A stretch of DNA of 39,364 nucleotides. Source: a virus. Positions 1 to 20,037 of the stretch are shown in pieces (position 1 is the first letter of the stretch; each line of letters starts with the position of its first letter). The stretch spans positions 1-39,364 of IMG/VR virus record IMGVR_UViG_3300029258_001738. The stretch is one strand, 5' to 3'. Under the pieces are notes generated by a model, which was not told where the DNA came from, made no database searches, and saw only the letters and a list, made by a program, of their open reading frames with translations. A program made the position numbers and the translations under genes.

Positions 1-36
1 GTTCGGTTCCCGTTTAGGGTAGGAGGTAGGTTCGGT

Positions 37-54
37 TTCCAATTTGAATTGGAA
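37..54. repeat. 18-bp palindrome, copy 1 of 4
   Basis: Perfect inverted repeat TTCCAATT-tg-AATTGGAA. It begins 2 nt beyond the 3' end of the initiator-like tRNA on the minus strand. Identical copies lie at 15664, 16012 and 19302. Its AT-rich arms stand out from the GC-rich surroundings. It could be a binding site for a dimeric protein or, here, a hairpin at the tRNA 3' end. Confidence 0.85.
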
Positions 55-56
55 AA

Positions 57-128
57 TGGCAGCGACCGGAATTGCACCGATGATCTTCGGGATATGAACC
101 CGACGGGATACTACTTCCCCACGCTGCG
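57..128 (-). tRNA. Initiator-like tRNA, anticodon CAT
   Basis: A 72-nt cloverleaf without encoded CCA. The acceptor strands CGCAGCG and CGCTGCC pair at six positions and leave a C1 x C72 mismatch. The D stem is GGGA/TCCC, the anticodon arm TCGGG-TTCATAT-CCCGA, and the T arm ATCGG-TGCAATT-CCGGT, with A at position 73. The unpaired 1:72 position, three consecutive G:C pairs closing the anticodon stem and a purine-11:pyrimidine-24 pair are the known marks of bacterial initiator tRNA, so this is tRNA-fMet-like rather than elongator Met. Two oddities: the D loop AGTAGTA lacks the usual GG pair, and the T loop has G instead of T at position 55, so the normal D-loop/T-loop contact is altered. It starts 8 nt after the protease gene stop, inside the head operon. 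Confidence 0.75.
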
Positions 129-9638: not shown

Positions 9639-10835
9639 CTATCCGTCCTGCCCGATGATGAATCCTTCGTACACGCCTGAAGAAGTACAGATGAAGCCGA
9701 ACACGTCCACCGCCCCCGCGTCTGTCGTCAGCGTGGGAACAGTTCCGCCGCCGCTCCAACTGATTCCGCTGAACCATGTCGGAACCCGGGATCCTGTCCC
9801 ATCCTGAACCAAACGAAGAACGAACCGCTGTCCTACCGTCACGTTCGACAGGGCCAGTGTTCTGTTCCCGCCCATTGTGACCGTCTGGAAGTTCGAATTG
9901 CTAAGATCGAACGTGACCGTGGCCCCATCCGTGGCCGTATACATCAGATTGGAGACACCAGCCGCGCCCACCAGTGACGTCGCCGAGCCCCACGCGCCGC
10001 CTGTCTTCGGGCCGTAGATGTCGCTGGCCGCCGTGTCGATGTAGAAGTCCCCATCCGCACCTGTTCCGCCGCTCGGGGCACCAGAACCGCTCAACACTGT
10101 GGCACCGTCAGCACCGTCGGCACCATCCGCACCTGTTGGGCCAGTCGGCCCGATCATCGATGTGGCCGCTGGCCATGCTCCCGTGGCTTTTGGTCCGTAG
10201 ACGTTGTTCGCCACGGCGTCGATGTAGAAGTCCCCATCCACACCGTCCCCATTGTCTGGGGCCACGATCCCGCTCAGTACAGTATTGCCATCAGCGCCGT
10301 CGGCACCATCAGCGCCGTCCGCCCCTTCCAGCGAATCCAGCCAGTCCGTGACGGTCCCCACGAAGCCCTGATCGACAGCAATTTCATAGGCGGAATCCCC
10401 ATTCGTTCCGTTCGTGCCATCAACGCCCGCCAGGCTGTCCAGCCATTCTTCTTCCGTCCCGGAGAATCCCGCCGCGACCGCCAGTTCATAGGCCGAATTT
10501 CCGTCCGATCCACGCGGGATCGTGATTTCCAGATCGACGTTCGATGACGTTCCGACGTTCGTGATGATCACGGAACTTCCCGCCGCACCTGTGGTGACGC
10601 TACTGATCGTCCATGTGGCCGCCCCGTCCAGCCCATCCGCGCCATCGGCCCCATCACTTCCGTCGGCACCGTCGGCACCGACCAACGAAGCCAGCCACGC
10701 CGCTTCGTCACCCACGAACCCTTCCGCCACTGCGATATCGTAGGCTGAATCGCCATCGGCCCCTGTTTGCAGCTGGGCCGCTGTCTTCAGACTTCCATCT
10801 GAAATGTCCACCATGTGTGTCGCTATGAATCCCAT
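9639..10835 (-). CDS. Collagen-like tail fibre / receptor-binding protein
   Basis: 398 aa. Three tandem units of the form SAY-E-AV---GF-G----WL-SL, each followed by a short Gly-Ala-Asp collagen-like stretch, occupy about 27-175. Two copies of a VLSG.GAP...DFYID...YGPK module follow (about 185-290). The last 100 residues (FDLSNSNFQTVTMGGNR to GFIIGQDG) form a beta-rich tip. This composition is known from phage fibres and should trimerise. The ATG at 10835 has GAGAGGATC upstream and overlaps the preceding gene by 13 nt. The internal repeats make recombination and length variation likely. Confidence 0.8.
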   Translation of the reverse strand: MGFIATHMVDISDGSLKTAAQLQTGADGDSAYDIAVAEGFVGDEAAWLASLVGADGADGSDGADGADGLDGAATWTISSVTTGAAGSSVIITNVGTSSNVDLEITIPRGSDGNSAYELAVAAGFSGTEEEWLDSLAGVDGTNGTNGDSAYEIAVDQGFVGTVTDWLDSLEGADGADGADGADGNTVLSGIVAPDNGDGVDGDFYIDAVANNVYGPKATGAWPAATSMIGPTGPTGADGADGADGATVLSGSGAPSGGTGADGDFYIDTAASDIYGPKTGGAWGSATSLVGAAGVSNLMYTATDGATVTFDLSNSNFQTVTMGGNRTLALSNVTVGQRFVLRLVQDGTGSRVPTWFSGISWSGGGTVPTLTTDAGAVDVFGFICTSSGVYEGFIIGQDG

Positions 10836-15540: not shown

Positions 15541-15663
15541 GATGAAGGCCCGCGAACTGTCGAACAAACGTCGAATTCCGTCCCCGTCGATCCTGTAGGG
15601 TTTCACCCCCTCCCCCGTCGATCATCAGCGAAAACACTGGCGAATCCGTTTCGCCTGTCGACT

Positions 15664-15681
15664 TTCCAATTTGAATTGGAA
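15664..15681. repeat. 18-bp palindrome, copy 2 of 4
   Basis: Identical to the copies at 37, 16012 and 19302. With the copy at 19302 it shares further flanking bases on both sides (ACT before, CTTCC after), so those two are part of a longer common sequence. Confidence 0.85.
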
Positions 15682-15719
15682 CTTCCGGTTTCGCTCCGGT
15701 TTACGGCCTTCAGCATGTC

Positions 15720-15786: not shown

Positions 15787-16011
15787 AGGGGAACCGGCAA
15801 GCCGCAAGGCATCCGAGTGATGACCGCTTGACCTGCTCACAGCACATTCAAAACGCGGTAGTGGCTGTTGGCTATTCCTGCCGCGTCGATCGTTGGCCCG
15901 TGGCGGGAATCGTGAAGGTTCCACGGCGATCGATATTCTGGACTATTCAGGGCCGTCCGTGCCTTCCACGCTCGCAAACGTGTGTTGCCCGTCTGGTGGG
16001 CCTATGTCGGT

Positions 16012-16029
16012 TTCCAATTTGAATTGGAA
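16012..16029. repeat. 18-bp palindrome, copy 3 of 4
   Basis: Exact copy of TTCCAATT-tg-AATTGGAA at the early-side edge of the control region, 50 bp beyond the stop of the 106-aa gene. Confidence 0.85.
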
Positions 16030-16078
16030 TCTCTGTTCATCGCGACCGTGTTAAACGAGCGCGCAGTTAAATAACAAG

Positions 16079-16399
16079 TTATCGGGATATGGTCAGCCGT
16101 GCTGCCACTTCGTAGACCTTGCTGATGATCTCGTAATTCGGTTTTTCTTCCGCGTCGATCATCTTGCAAATGTCCGCCATCCGAAACGTCAACGTGTCAA
16201 TCACTGCAAGCATCTCACCGTCAATCGACTCCCGCCGCAGGCGTTCCGCTGTGTCGCTAATCAATCCCGGTACATCCCAGCAATCGGGGTTTCCCAGTCG
16301 ATCCATCATTTCCGCGTAGCCTTCCGGCACGCTGTAGTGTTCATCGTTTTCGGCCTGCATCAACTCATGCTGACCTTGTTCGCTGTCCGTGTAATCCAT
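16079..16399 (-). CDS. Hypothetical acidic protein in the foreign block
   Basis: 106 aa, start at ATG 16399; upstream in-frame sequence passes through the attC-like repeat and a tRNA-like element and is not protein-like. Acidic and helical (MDYTDSEQGQHELMQAE...), no recognised domain. Its ATG lies 10 nt beyond the GTTAT end of the attC-like repeat and its stop reads CGATAACTTG, so it is placed like a gene in an integron-type cassette. Codon use is less GC-biased than in the phage structural genes. Confidence 0.55.
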   Translation of the reverse strand: MDYTDSEQGQHELMQAENDEHYSVPEGYAEMMDRLGNPDCWDVPGLISDTAERLRRESIDGEMLAVIDTLTFRMADICKMIDAEEKPNYEIISKVYEVAARLTISR

Positions 16400-16408
16400 C
16401 GCAATACC

Positions 16409-16497
16409 CGATAACAAAAAAATACACGCGGAGTTGCCGACCACGCGGAAAATGAACTCAACGTCACCGGCGGCAACCCGGTGATTTAAGCGTTCAT
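16409..16497. repeat. attC-like repeat E1
   Basis: Reads ATAACAA at one end and GCGTT at the other, with inner blocks CGGAGTTGCCG (16429-16439) and CGGCAACCCGG (16471-16481) able to fold on each other. Its right half has a perfect stem TCACCGG/CCGGTGA and outer arms AATGAAC/GTTCATT. The blocks and their order are shared with E2 at 17879-17967. Imperfect palindrome, end motifs and placement against gene ends are what integron attC sites show. Confidence 0.5.
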
Positions 16498-16501
16498 TTG
16501 A

Positions 16502-16600
16502 TTGACCGGATCGGGACTCGAACCCGCTGTGGGTAGGCCAAAATGCCACGGCTTAGCTATGCCTACCCTTTACCCAGATGCCCCCGTGGTGGCCCGGTCA
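16502..16600 (-). other. tRNA-like element with oversized interior
   Basis: A 7-bp acceptor stem GACCGGG/TCCGGTC followed by A, and a textbook T arm (CGGG-TTCGAGT-CCCG), look like a tRNA gene. The interior is about 60 nt and instead forms an 8-bp stem GGGTAGGC/GCCTACCC around a 22-nt loop, so I cannot place a normal anticodon arm. It could be a degenerate tRNA, one carrying an insertion, or an RNA mimic. It ends just before the attC-like repeat E1. Confidence 0.4.
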
Positions 16601-16603
16601 CTT

Positions 16604-16619
16604 GCCAGTCTCTCCCGGC
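16604..16619 (-). promoter_or_regulatory. GAGAGA-loop hairpin
   Basis: Minus-strand RNA would form GCCGG-GAGAGA-CTGGC between the two tRNA-like elements. Same loop as in the leaders at 20228-20243 and, as GAGAG, 24884-24900. Confidence 0.4.
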
Positions 16620-16638
16620 TGTCACTCAATAGCTTGGG

Positions 16639-16655
16639 CCGGGAGTCGAACCCGA
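16639..16655 (-). other. Isolated tRNA T arm
   Basis: TCGGG-TTCGACT-CCCGG is a perfect T arm followed by CCCAAGC. The only near match for the other acceptor strand (GCTTGGA) lies more than 100 nt upstream, beyond two other stable hairpins. Likely a tRNA remnant or a larger RNA with a tRNA-like 3' end. Confidence 0.35.
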
Positions 16656-16875
16656 CAACGTGATGCCCCTACTTCCGAAAGTCTACGCGAGTTTCGACCC
16701 CGCTCGCGGGCAACCTCTAAGATCGTCAATGGCATACGTTCCATGACCTAAGTGATCCCTCTACACATCCAAGCAAATGAACAATTGCGTCAACGGGAAC
16801 GGCACATCCCGCCGACATGAAATAGATCGTCAACGGGTGCCGTCCCGTTACGCATAGCGTTCCGGCGACGGGGTG

Positions 16876-17223
16876 TCACTGTCCGTCAGTGACCTGTGCC
16901 CGTTGGTTTTGATTCGCTTTGACTCGGCGTAGTTCTATGGTGTACCACTTCAGACGGTTCCCCATTTTCATCAACTCAACTGCTAGATCGCGTTCGCAGT
17001 CCATCTCATCATGGCCACTAAGACGCAGCATTTCCGACGCGGCCCGCAACATTGCTGATATCGCAGAATCAAAACGGCTGTCGCCGGAACGCTTCGGATT
17101 TCCGCTACGCTCCACATCCGATTGCCGGTCATCCGCACCGGAACAATCGGATGCAACTGACGGGCATGGCATTATCTTCGGGTGCGGGCATTGGCACCGC
17201 TCACAGTAGTACGTTCCAACCAT
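16876..17223 (-). CDS. Hypothetical protein with N-terminal Cys cluster
   Basis: 115 aa with a strong ribosome-binding site (AAAGGAGATAGCT before ATG). The N-terminus has C7, C10, C12 and C19 (YYCERCQCPHP..MPC), a possible small zinc-binding knuckle. The middle is Ser/Asp-rich and the C-terminus helical. No family recognised. It follows the methylase by 29 nt and is probably co-transcribed. Confidence 0.6.
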   Translation of the reverse strand: MVGTYYCERCQCPHPKIMPCPSVASDCSGADDRQSDVERSGNPKRSGDSRFDSAISAMLRAASEMLRLSGHDEMDCERDLAVELMKMGNRLKWYTIELRRVKANQNQRAQVTDGQ

Positions 17224-17252
17224 AGCTATCTCCTTTCAGTTGATCCGAAGCG

Positions 17253-17882
17253 TTATGCCGACAATCGAAGCATCAACGCGGCTCGAAGTTGCCAGCCCAA
17301 ATACTCTGTGTACGCGGGTGGTATGGCCTCCCGCAATTCGTCTCGTGTCATCCAGTCGATCCCCATCGCTCGGCGAGCCTGATCAACGCCGCTGAAATTC
17401 CCGACGACGTGCATCATCTCGCCCGGTTGTGGCGGTCGTCCCATTTTCGTCGTTCGTTTGTCGTGGTCTCGGTGCTTCGGTGCTGTCACCTTAATCGACG
17501 ATTCAAACAGTCTGTGGCGATACGTTCCCAGCCCGAACGAATACCCGCACAACACTATCGGATCAATCAATGGCGATCCTTCCACGTTCTCAATCACCCA
17601 CGGTTTGGCCGGCATTGCTTGCCGTGTCGCTTCGATTAATTCGGGGTGTTTCTGTTTCATAATCTTCGCCGCGTTGCTGTACGCTTGGCACGGTGGGCTT
17701 GCGTGTATCGCATCAAACCGCCGGCCGTTTTTTTTCAGGTATTCAATCGCGTCCGCCTGAAAAAACTCAAACGGGTAATTCTTCTGCGGCTCAATATCCA
17801 CGCCAACAACATCGAATCCTGCACGGTGGTAGCCCATCGCGGCACCTCCAGCTTTGCAGTACAGATCCAACAGCAGCGGCAT
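17253..17882 (-). CDS. Compact C5-cytosine DNA methyltransferase
   Basis: 209 aa from ATG 17882. SAM-binding motif I DLYCKAGGAAMGYHRAGF (residues 6-23), catalytic SPPCQAYS with C65, ENV at 98-100, the Arg motif GTYRHRLF and the C-terminal motif X IPPAYTEYLGWQL identify a Dcm-type enzyme that transfers methyl to C5 of cytosine. At 209 aa it is far shorter than the usual 300-plus, with little room for a target-recognition domain between motifs VIII and X. No restriction partner is seen, so it is probably an orphan protecting phage DNA. The ATG lies within the GTTATG end of attC-like repeat E2 and the stop reads TAACGC. Confidence 0.85.
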   Translation of the reverse strand: MPLLLDLYCKAGGAAMGYHRAGFDVVGVDIEPQKNYPFEFFQADAIEYLKKNGRRFDAIHASPPCQAYSNAAKIMKQKHPELIEATRQAMPAKPWVIENVEGSPLIDPIVLCGYSFGLGTYRHRLFESSIKVTAPKHRDHDKRTTKMGRPPQPGEMMHVVGNFSGVDQARRAMGIDWMTRDELREAIPPAYTEYLGWQLRAALMLRLSA

Positions 17883-17967
17883 AACAATATTTTGTACCGG
17901 AGTTGCCGGCACACCTTTCTGAAGTGGGAAGCCACACGCGGCAACCCGGTAAAAATGGGCGTTACTT
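17879..17967. repeat. attC-like repeat E2
   Basis: CATAACAA ... CGGAGTTGCCG (17898-17908) ... CGGCAACCCGGT (17939-17950) ... GCGTTAC. Same blocks, order and spacing as E1. It covers the stop codon of the 218-aa replication gene at one end and the start codon of the methylase at the other, as if the methylase had been joined there by site-specific recombination. Confidence 0.5.
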
Positions 17968-18618
17968 CACCCCTTGTGCTTCAATGGTTTTGTAACTGTT
18001 CACGGCTTCCCCGATGTGGGCCACGGGGACCGCCGCCCCACGATGTCCGAGAAACCCATTGTTCCGTTCGATCACGCCCACCAAAGGGACCGCCGCCCGG
18101 CTGGTGTTGGACATCGCCCGATAGATCTTCTGAAATTCTTTGGGCGTCCACTTCAGTAGTTCTTCGGATGTCTTGTTGCATAACACCACCCATCCCCCCA
18201 TGGCGTCGATCGCCGCGCTGATGGCTGGATCTTCGAACTGGACGGAGTAGTAGGCCCCGTACTGTCGAATTGCCTTCAGGACCGCGTCCCACGCCAACAC
18301 CGCCGCGTCTTCCGTGGTGGTCTGAACCCCGGCCAGTTCCCGGATCAGCTGGATGGAAAGGAATTCTTTCGAATGCTGTCTGGCATAGACTCCGATGGCC
18401 CTGGCGAATTCCGGGGCCGTCACATCGGACAGGGCCAGATACCACACACGCCCACGTTCCCGCGTGGGGGGCTTCCATCCCGCCGCGTCGAATAATCCAC
18501 ACAACAGTTCCCAGAATTCCTGTTTCGTCATCAGGGCGCTGCAATCGTCCAGCACATCGCCCCAGGTGACGGATTCAGAACGGGACACTTCCGTAACTGT
18601 TATCGCCTGGCTGTCCAT
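17962..18618 (-). CDS. Replication-associated protein (DUF6475-like)
   Basis: 218 aa. The stretch around residues 105-170 (VLAWDAVLKAIRQYG, DPAISAAIDAMGGW, EFQKIYRAM) matches a domain seen in phage proteins next to replication genes, where a helicase-loader role has been suggested. ATG 18618 is supported by AAAGGA 10 nt upstream although it overlaps the preceding gene by 44 nt. Its last codons lie in the attC-like repeat, so the native C-terminus may have been altered. Confidence 0.6.
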   Translation of the reverse strand: MDSQAITVTEVSRSESVTWGDVLDDCSALMTKQEFWELLCGLFDAAGWKPPTRERGRVWYLALSDVTAPEFARAIGVYARQHSKEFLSIQLIRELAGVQTTTEDAAVLAWDAVLKAIRQYGAYYSVQFEDPAISAAIDAMGGWVVLCNKTSEELLKWTPKEFQKIYRAMSNTSRAAVPLVGVIERNNGFLGHRGAAVPVAHIGEAVNSYKTIEAQGVK

Positions 18619-19543
18619 TGCTCGCTGTTCCTTTGAAGTAGCCTTCGTGTTGTGCCCGCATCACTGCCGACGTCCATTTCCGCATGATCTGTTTACCTTC
18701 CCGGTCCACAGTCCACCCCTTCTGGTCATAGAAGAACCAGAACTTGTGGGGGCACACGTCCGGCGCGTTCTCCGCACAGTAGGCCGCCACGTCTTCGATC
18801 CGAGGGGGAATGTCTGTGGCTGGGGGATCCATTTCGTCCGCCAGTTTTCTCAGCTTCTGAGCGCCCCGCCGTCTCTGTTTCATGTCCGTGACCGCTGACA
18901 GTTTCCGAATCGTCTTCGCGACCATGTCAATTCCGGCCTTCAGCGTGATCTGGTCCGCAATCGGAACCACGGGGATCACAGCATGTGGATCGGGCTTGTT
19001 TTTCGGGGCCTTCCGTGGCCCCTTCTCCGTCTTCGTGGCCTTCGTCGATGTGGCCGCTGGCTGTGTCTTCTTCGGGGCCTGTGGATTCTCCGCTGGCTTC
19101 CAGATCGGTTCGTCGGGTTCCGGGGCCGTGATCGTGGGCGTGGTGACAGGGTCCGCTTCCGGCTGTGTCAGATCTTCCCCGTTTCTGGCCCTGTGCCATG
19201 CCTTCATTTCGGCCACTGTGGCCCCGGTGTCTTCGGCCCATGTCAGGGCGTCTTCGCAGTCCGGCCAGTTCATGGCCGTGTAGTGATGTGTGAACGACAC
19301 TTTCCAATTTGAATTGGAACTTCCGAACCGTTCCCAGACCGTCCGCCGTTGCCGGACCTGTTCCCCTGACAGCCCAACACGTCGGCCGAAGTCTTCATCC
19401 GTTCGGCCCCGCGAAAACTTCTCCGTCCACTTGCTGGCACATTCGCCCGTCGTCCAGTCGCTGTCCGACAGGGCCGCCCGGCATCGGGCGAACAGTTCTT
19501 CTTCGGTTTCTTCGGCCTGTTGTGTGATCTGTTCCGGCATCAT
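18575..19543 (-). CDS. Putative replication initiator / DNA-binding protein
   Basis: 322 aa (ATG 19543; the next codon is also ATG). The N-terminal third has an HTH-like region (GRRVGLSGEQVRQRRTVWERFG) and SFTHHYTAMNW...GATVAEMKAW. A Pro/Thr/Lys linker (about 140-200) follows. The C-terminal 100 residues (PPRIEDVAAYCAENAP..FWFFYDQKGWTV..MRKWTSAV) resemble the tail domain common in phage replication proteins. The 18-bp palindrome lies inside its coding sequence and encodes SNSNWK. Origin location inside the initiator gene is known in lambda-like phages, so this palindrome may be its site; that is inference. Confidence 0.6.
   Translation of the reverse strand: MMPEQITQQAEETEEELFARCRAALSDSDWTTGECASKWTEKFSRGRTDEDFGRRVGLSGEQVRQRRTVWERFGSSNSNWKVSFTHHYTAMNWPDCEDALTWAEDTGATVAEMKAWHRARNGEDLTQPEADPVTTPTITAPEPDEPIWKPAENPQAPKKTQPAATSTKATKTEKGPRKAPKNKPDPHAVIPVVPIADQITLKAGIDMVAKTIRKLSAVTDMKQRRRGAQKLRKLADEMDPPATDIPPRIEDVAAYCAENAPDVCPHKFWFFYDQKGWTVDREGKQIMRKWTSAVMRAQHEGYFKGTASNGQPGDNSYGSVPF
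19302..19319. repeat. 18-bp palindrome, copy 4 of 4 (in coding sequence)
   Basis: Same sequence as the copies at 37, 15664 and 16012, here within the replication-type gene and translated. Confidence 0.85.
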
Positions 19544-20037
19544 GCCCGTGGTTCCCAGAAAAGTTCCGTTGTGGTGTTGGATGACAGATATAGGGGATGC
19601 TTCGGCTTCCCTGTTTTGTTGGTTCCCAGACAGTGAATCGGCCGCCCGATCACCTTGCAGATTTCGGCCTGCCGTTCGTCTGTGCAATGGTTCCCCCAGG
19701 CCGCTACGATCAGGTCAACGTGTTCGCCCCAGTAGGCCAGTGTTGAATTATTGGCTGGCCCTTCCGGGTCCGGGGCCGCTTGCATCACGCGCGGGTCCGT
19801 TGCTCGGAAGGCGTAGGCGTTCAACATGAACATTCCCGCGAACCCCCAGTCCTTCGCGAACTGAATACATCGCCGGACGGTGGGATCGTCCTGTGTTTCG
19901 TCCGCCGTGGATGGGTTCAGGCCCACGAACGCCACGAGGGGACGATTCACCGTCCCGCCCCATCGCCGCCACAGCGAATACCGCCACACGCGACAGGACG
20001 AAAACATCGCCCCGGATTCCTGAAGATCCCACTTCAT
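19540..20037 (-). CDS. DUF1643 protein
   Basis: 165 aa from ATG 20037. The family pattern is clear: RVWRYSLWRRWG, then FVGLNPSTADETQDDPTVRRC, then a KDWGFAGMFMLNAYAFRATDP strand-helix unit (quoted in part), and C-terminal GRPIHCLGTNKTGKPKHPLYL. DUF1643 is common in phages and islands; the biochemical role is not established. Both ends overlap neighbours by 1 to 4 nt. Confidence 0.85.
   Translation of the reverse strand: MKWDLQESGAMFSSCRVWRYSLWRRWGGTVNRPLVAFVGLNPSTADETQDDPTVRRCIQFAKDWGFAGMFMLNAYAFRATDPRVMQAAPDPEGPANNSTLAYWGEHVDLIVAAWGNHCTDERQAEICKVIGRPIHCLGTNKTGKPKHPLYLSSNTTTELFWEPRA

Follow-up and report, generated by a model that had tools for sequence, protein, structure and literature searches.

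We report here that a phage genome carries four gene cassettes of the bacterial integron kind, in which the genes run opposite to the usual direction relative to their attC sites, and that similar phages hold different sets of such cassettes. This suggests that viruses, probably of planctomycete bacteria, use bacterial gene-capture machinery to pick up counter-defence genes. The window, meaning the whole stretch of DNA that was analysed, is the viral record IMGVR_UViG_3300029258_001738 of IMG/VR, with a length of 39,364 nucleotides. It contains terminase, portal, head and tape-measure genes, and no integron integrase was detected in it, either with the family model TIGR02249 or with an alignment of phage-type intI, although the record may be incomplete.

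The initial annotation had recognized two repeats (16409-16497 and 17879-17967) and proposed that they delimit integron gene cassettes in a phage devoid of integrase, an interpretation that our analysis supports. Both repeats are present and share the same sequence words in the same order, and the pattern GGAGTTGCCG-N20-50-CGGCAACCCG occurs twice in the window, against 0 in 100 dinucleotide shuffles. They also touch the stop of one gene and the start of the next: the stop codon of the 17962-18618 gene is the TTA of GCGTTA (17959-17964), and the ATG of a methylase gene (17880-17882) lies in CGGCATAAC (17877-17885). Two genes, the methylase and the 17962 gene, end in TAACGC, and the block is slightly AT-richer (GC 0.52-0.55 against 0.579 for the window). 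However, the annotation missed a third attC site, a weaker fourth one, the left end of the block at 16078/16079 and the fact that the genes run opposite to the attC direction. It also considered the acquisition of a methylase by this route to be unusual, but such a cassette is not unprecedented, since five predicted DNA methyltransferases have been reported in phage cassettes (Qi et al. 2023, PMC9892861). The features of the block are as follows:

16060-16079, + strand: attI-like left junction (GCGCAGTTAAATAACAAG|TT), exact left limit unknown
16079-16492: cassette 1 (414 bp)
16079-16399, - strand: cassette 1 gene, 106 aa, no family; its stop codon is the first three bases of the cassette
16407-16500, + strand: attC1
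16493-16859: cassette 2 (367 bp), no clear ORF; tRNA-like stretches on the - strand (16504-16601, 16611-16725)
16774-16867, + strand: attC2
16860-17252: cassette 3 (393 bp)
16876-17223, - strand: cassette 3 ORF, up to 115 aa, no family; it overlaps attC3, so the true start may lie further in
17136-17260, + strand: attC3, weak, with a long terminal loop
17253-17961: cassette 4 (709 bp)
17253-17882, - strand: cassette 4 gene, C5 cytosine DNA methyltransferase, 209 aa
17877-17969, + strand: attC4
17962-18618, - strand: flanking phage gene (DUF6475, phrog_10105); its stop codon abuts the array

To establish what the repeats are, we aligned 20 such sequences (of 35 deduplicated ones), none of which comes from the window. 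They fit into one structure with R boxes and a long stem interrupted by two extra bases on the left arm only, which would be the anatomy of attC sites. The stem strongly covaries: 97.0% of cells pair, 52 cells are changed on both sides against 15.7 in shuffles, and the score is 0.313 against 0.083 when shuffled (0 of 500) and 0.027-0.072 when slid. The search pattern had fixed both letters of 9 of the 22 pairs, the inner ones, so that only the other 13 are independent evidence. The covariance model built from this alignment (R1) finds attC4 at 71.5 bits (E 3.7e-18), attC1 at 64.5 bits (E 3.9e-16) and attC2, which had been missed, at 50.1 bits (E 5.7e-12). The + strand scores much better than the other (71.5 against 25 for attC4), so attC points along +. 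The case of attC3 is weaker, as it reaches 25 bits (E 7e-4) in an identical twin contig (L008 2001-2125; L191), but only 11.8 bits (E 0.68) in the scan of the window, although R and L boxes and an extra G can be seen by eye. As single strands, attC2 (z -4.9 for the - strand) and attC4 fold canonically, while attC1 does not fold into the canonical hairpin as its minimum-energy single strand, and z is only -1.5 for attC1 and -1.4 for attC3. Three clear sites and one weak site thus lie on one strand within 1.6 kb.

In an integron, the cassette circle closes its own attC, so that the first bases of a cassette should complement the R'' end, the start, of its own attC. In the window they do over 7-9 bases: GTTATCGGG (16078) with CCCGATAAC (16407), GTTCATTTG (16492) with CAAATGAAC (16774), GTTCCGG (16859) with CCGGAAC (17138), and GTTATGCCG (17252) with CGGCATAAC (17877). 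The 9-mers of cassettes 1, 2 and 4 are each unique on the + strand of the window, whereas the third pair matches at 8 of 9 and its 7-mer is not unique. Over seven arrays, the match is on average 8.24 of 9 for 41 own pairs, against 5.85 for 266 pairs with other attCs of the same arrays. The boundaries of the four cassettes are fixed accordingly, with those of cassette 1 at G16078|T16079 and G16492|T16493.

The 106-aa product of cassette 1 matches no significant family but has 44% identity over 52 aa (E 2e-5) to an ORF beside the array of the viral contig L025. In cassette 2 the longest ORFs are of 57 and 40 aa, and its tRNA-like stretches fold no more stably than shuffles (z -1.1 and -0.4). No tRNA was called there at default settings, and loosened settings of ARAGORN draw several poor folds, so we call it only tRNA-like. 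No Rfam family reaches its threshold in the block, and two weak matches (E 1.5 and 4.6) look like chance. The methylase of cassette 4 matches phrog_363 (E 2e-43) and PF00145 (E 1e-5) and is itself of a phage family, with 68% identity to the methylase of Mycobacterium phage Optimus. The flanking gene matches PF20081 (E 1e-12) and phrog_10105 (E 3e-32).

The same attC type is found in planctomycete genomes. Of 12 genomes holding such repeats, 10 being planctomycetes by record title, 10 have an integron integrase over the family cut-off, against 0 of 14 control genomes. Long arrays of this attC type lie beside intI in the loci L175 (14 sites), L176 (over 30) and L180. In 79 genomes drawn from the phylum, the seed genome included, 10 have matches with strict filters.

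It also occurs in 30 viral records. Those were kept by eye from 44 stretches for their attC context, 14 being dropped, so the fact that all 30 match R1 is partly due to selection, and they include near-duplicates (L004/L022/L027, L011/L012, L014/L032, L017/L043, L023/L038, L024/L030, and L008, the twin of the window). Only one of them, G018, has intI over the cut-off, together with portal, head protease and major head genes. Weak TIGR02249 or A6 matches in several viral records are far below the cut-off, and we take them for ordinary tyrosine recombinases. Hallmark genes were looked for in six records besides the window: G014, G022, G018 and L041 gave structural genes, L025 (one protein) a replication gene and the L019 record (two proteins) none, while the others rest on IMG/VR. 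This attC was not found in cultured phages at the sensitivity of our search.

Interestingly, cassettes move between phages of this kind. The L004 and L016 records, which have TerL and tape-measure genes, are 97% alike over 3836 nt up to the array and alike again beyond it (328 nt at 92%, by way of L022, the near-copy of L004), yet they carry different arrays. L005, in turn, shares one cassette with L004 at 99.2% over 379 nt in a different array. This was not seen for the lineage of the window, since the flanking gene was found only in a 100% identical twin. The next relative by terminase (L194, 63%) has no attC in its 28-kb record but is too diverged to show an empty site, and of 20 loci of terminase relatives searched with R1, only the twin and L206 matched.

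The left junction of the arrays was also examined. L004, L005 and L025 share a 49-56 nt site at the start of the array, of which L004 has about 24 nt more than L016. L016 gives a 22-nt match and L044 none in that search, though by eye both hold versions of it. The window junction, TTAAATAACAAG|TT, resembles the attI region beside intI of the chromosomal integron in the planctomycete genome G005, GATAAAAACAAG|TT (CCGGGATAAAAACAAG|TTATC), and the junction in the viral contig L019, but the match is short and we assign it with moderate confidence. By the complement rule, with GTT required, 11 of 26 viral arrays give a match of 9 or 10 of 10 and 20 of 26 at least 8 (L014 and L032 are near copies and have a second candidate). 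By our own estimate, 8 of 10 arises by chance in about a third of such searches. The short core alone is not diagnostic either: a similar 18-base pattern gave 3 viral contigs without attC. Another pattern gave L005, L025 and L245, the last with an attC and by eye the same first cassette as L005, and a long degenerate attI pattern matched none of 244 loci.

The strongest new point concerns gene polarity. In 66 viral cassettes, the longest ORF is antisense to attC in 47, sense in 2 and unclear in 17. This count uses 17 sources, some sharing cassettes, and includes first cassettes; the opposite-strand array of G040 and the array of G029 had been left out, and when counted separately afterwards they gave 13 antisense, 0 sense and 3 unclear of 16. 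In 61 cassettes of eight planctomycete-type loci, the longest ORF is on the contrary sense in 41, antisense in 4 and unclear in 16. The latter count leaves out L176 (many cassettes of about 256 nt) and L049, L179 and L184 (mostly reversed). The first count, over all 12 chromosomal loci, gave 57 sense, 20 antisense and 25 unclear of 102, 15 of those 20 coming from very short cassettes of L176 and from L179, L184 and L049, against 1 sense, 38 antisense and 14 unclear of 53 for viral cassettes. A Fisher test gave 1.6e-19, but it treats cassettes as independent, which they are not.

Protein families, at E up to 0.01, agree with this polarity. The antisense viral ORFs (65 of 66 scanned, the one of cassette 2 being left out) match 14 Pfam and 36 PHROG models, several of them weakly, among which are Lar restriction alleviation (E 2e-11), methylases, HNH, GIY-YIG and Q-like antitermination, while the 66 viral sense ORFs match none. 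Chromosomal sense ORFs match 32 Pfam models among 61, and antisense ones only five HTH models, one member each. As insertion is expected to fix the direction of attC, gene direction is a property of the cassette. With simple ORF calling, the ORFs beyond the far end of the arrays mostly run with the cassette genes (26 against 8), whereas those on the attI side do so about as often as not (25 against 20). This fits read-through from the phage operon and selection for cassettes of the right polarity, although that step is an inference.

Concerning the integrases, the intI of phage G018 and that beside reversed cassettes in G012 form a clade (100/100; 51.5% identity), apart from the planctomycete ones (31-39%). 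Two more viral contigs, L250 and L251, carry relatives at 82% beside R1 sites, where 2 of 3 ORFs of 80 aa or more each run opposite to attC. So a host or a co-infecting phage could supply the integrase, though neither is shown.

Taken together, we consider it likely that the block is an integrase-less integron in a phage, with an attI-like landing site at 16078/16079 followed by four cassettes, each ending in an attC whose top strand is the + strand. The most likely mechanism is that an integron integrase supplied in trans, from the chromosomal integron of a planctomycete host or from a co-infecting phage with its own intI, joins cassette circles to the attI-like or attC sites at G|TT through the folded bottom strand of attC. 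Unlike in ordinary cassettes, the genes run towards attI, so that phage transcription coming from the far end (the leftward operon with the DUF6475 gene) would read straight through them. Phages thus appear to draw on a pool of polarity-inverted cassettes carrying phage-useful genes such as methylases. The integrase in trans, the planctomycete host, the read-through expression, the present mobility and the activity in this particular phage are inferred. If this is right, integrons are not only bacterial stockpiles that now and then stray into phages, but are used by phages as exchange sites for counter-defence genes, with a cassette architecture adapted to phage transcription. This would explain how near-identical phages can differ in accessory genes, and gene polarity relative to attC would be a simple marker to tell phage-adapted from bacterial cassettes. 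More tentatively, phages of planctomycetes might keep dedicated attI landing sites and share a pool of inverted cassettes rich in counter-defence and regulatory genes, exchanged by borrowing the host integron integrase or one from co-infecting phages of a separate phage intI clade, as a viral counterpart of the bacterial integron.

Other explanations have to be considered. The block could be a relic, brought in once by illegitimate recombination and not mobile since, in line with the lack of detected intI, the weak attC3 and the identical twin. This seems unlikely, since cassette ends match their own attC exactly for three of four cassettes, similar phages differ in cassettes at one place, the genes run opposite to those of most host arrays counted and the methylase is of phage type. 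It is also possible, though we doubt it, that IntI inserted the cassettes at a chance secondary G|TT site rather than at an attI kept by the phage, given the short match in the window and the modest junction scores of many viral arrays. However, the 49-56 nt site is shared by L004, L005 and L025 at their junctions, in L004-L005 without other match on that side, and cores like AATAAATTG|TT recur beside phage and bacterial intI genes.

The reversed polarity might rather be a property of particular host lineages, whose phages would merely sample their cassettes. Reversed ORFs are indeed found in bacterial bins, some beside intI (5 of 6 in L179, 2 of 2 in L184, 2 of 2 in L049, and the first cassette of L178, on a contig with housekeeping genes), so the reversal is not confined to phages. 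Yet the L184 intI groups with the phage intI of G018 at 100/100 and lies on a 4.8-kb contig, so it may be a phage piece; the eight other planctomycete-type loci are mostly sense, as is L176 (16 sense, 6 antisense, 9 unclear of 31), and viral cassettes carry functions known from phages. We regard this reading as doubtful. That the repeats are terminators or dispersed intergenic repeats is very improbable: two terminator-like stems overlap attC4, but 5 such sites were found in the region against 4.2 expected, and the covariation with two unpaired bases on one arm, the R boxes, the complementarity of cassette ends and the arrays beside intI all speak against it.

The chromosomal integrons of Planctomycetota (G001, G002, G003 and G005) have the same attC sequence and structure type, with a similar attI core in G005, but they carry intI and mostly long arrays, and in the eight loci counted their genes mostly run with attC. 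The phage integron of G018, like the relatives of its intI in L250 and L251, has R1-type attC sites beside an integron integrase of a separate clade, none being found in the window, and 2 of the 3 cassettes of G018 are antisense by length. Ghaly et al. 2022 (PMC9668308) describe arrays of ORFs generally in the same orientation, and our literature searches, limited to an open-access library, showed no reversed cassette genes or planctomycete phages with integrons that we recognized. Integrons in phages are already in print: Qi et al. 2023 (PMC9892861) found integron components in 21 phages, including attC clusters without integrase (CALINs), methyltransferase cassettes, attC sites shown to work and, in a Shewanella prophage, a CALIN headed by attI. 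In the parts of that paper considered, gene direction relative to attC is not stated, two arrays being described as all in one direction, the typical structure, and 'Planctomycet' occurs 0 times in its main text. The array described here appears to be an integrase-less phage integron in which the cassette genes run opposite to attC, and near-identical phages of this kind differ in their cassettes.

Cassette 2 of the array has no clear ORF, but it contains, on the - strand of the window between 16504 and 16725, two stretches with tRNA T-arm-like words (GGGTTCGAGTCCC, GGGTTCGACTCCC). In the first of these, an acceptor-like stem and an enlarged anticodon arm can also be found, although the folds are not more stable than those of shuffled sequences. 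A tRNA-like word (GGGCAGGACTCGAACCTGC) also follows the array of another phage (contig L004), beyond its last attC, but ARAGORN calls no tRNA there.

Outside the cassettes, a palindromic word, TTTCCAATTTGAATTGGAA or nearly so, occurs four times in the window (34-60, 15661-15687, 16009-16035 and 19299-19325). Two of the copies lie in the gene-poor stretch left of the array and one is found inside the 18575-19687 ORF. This word could be an operator or a small mobile repeat. The window also contains, at 9639-10835, a gene with repeats of 183-nt spacing, which read by eye as Gly-Ala-Asp triplets on the - strand, and which perhaps encodes a tail fibre.

Other viral records were also found to carry attC sites. 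In particular, viral record G040 (locus L255) has attC sites on both strands, three on the + strand at 34.8-35.2 kb or nearby and twelve on the - strand at 37.7-44.0 kb, as if two arrays face each other. A distant relative of the window phage (locus L206, terminase 38%) also has attC sites near a contig end (17224-17968). Finally, in the chromosomal integron of the Planctomycetota genome G005, the cassette next to attI (contig L178, 14519-14882), on a contig with housekeeping genes, holds an 87-aa ORF opposite to attC, and this cassette may be a recent arrival from the phage pool.
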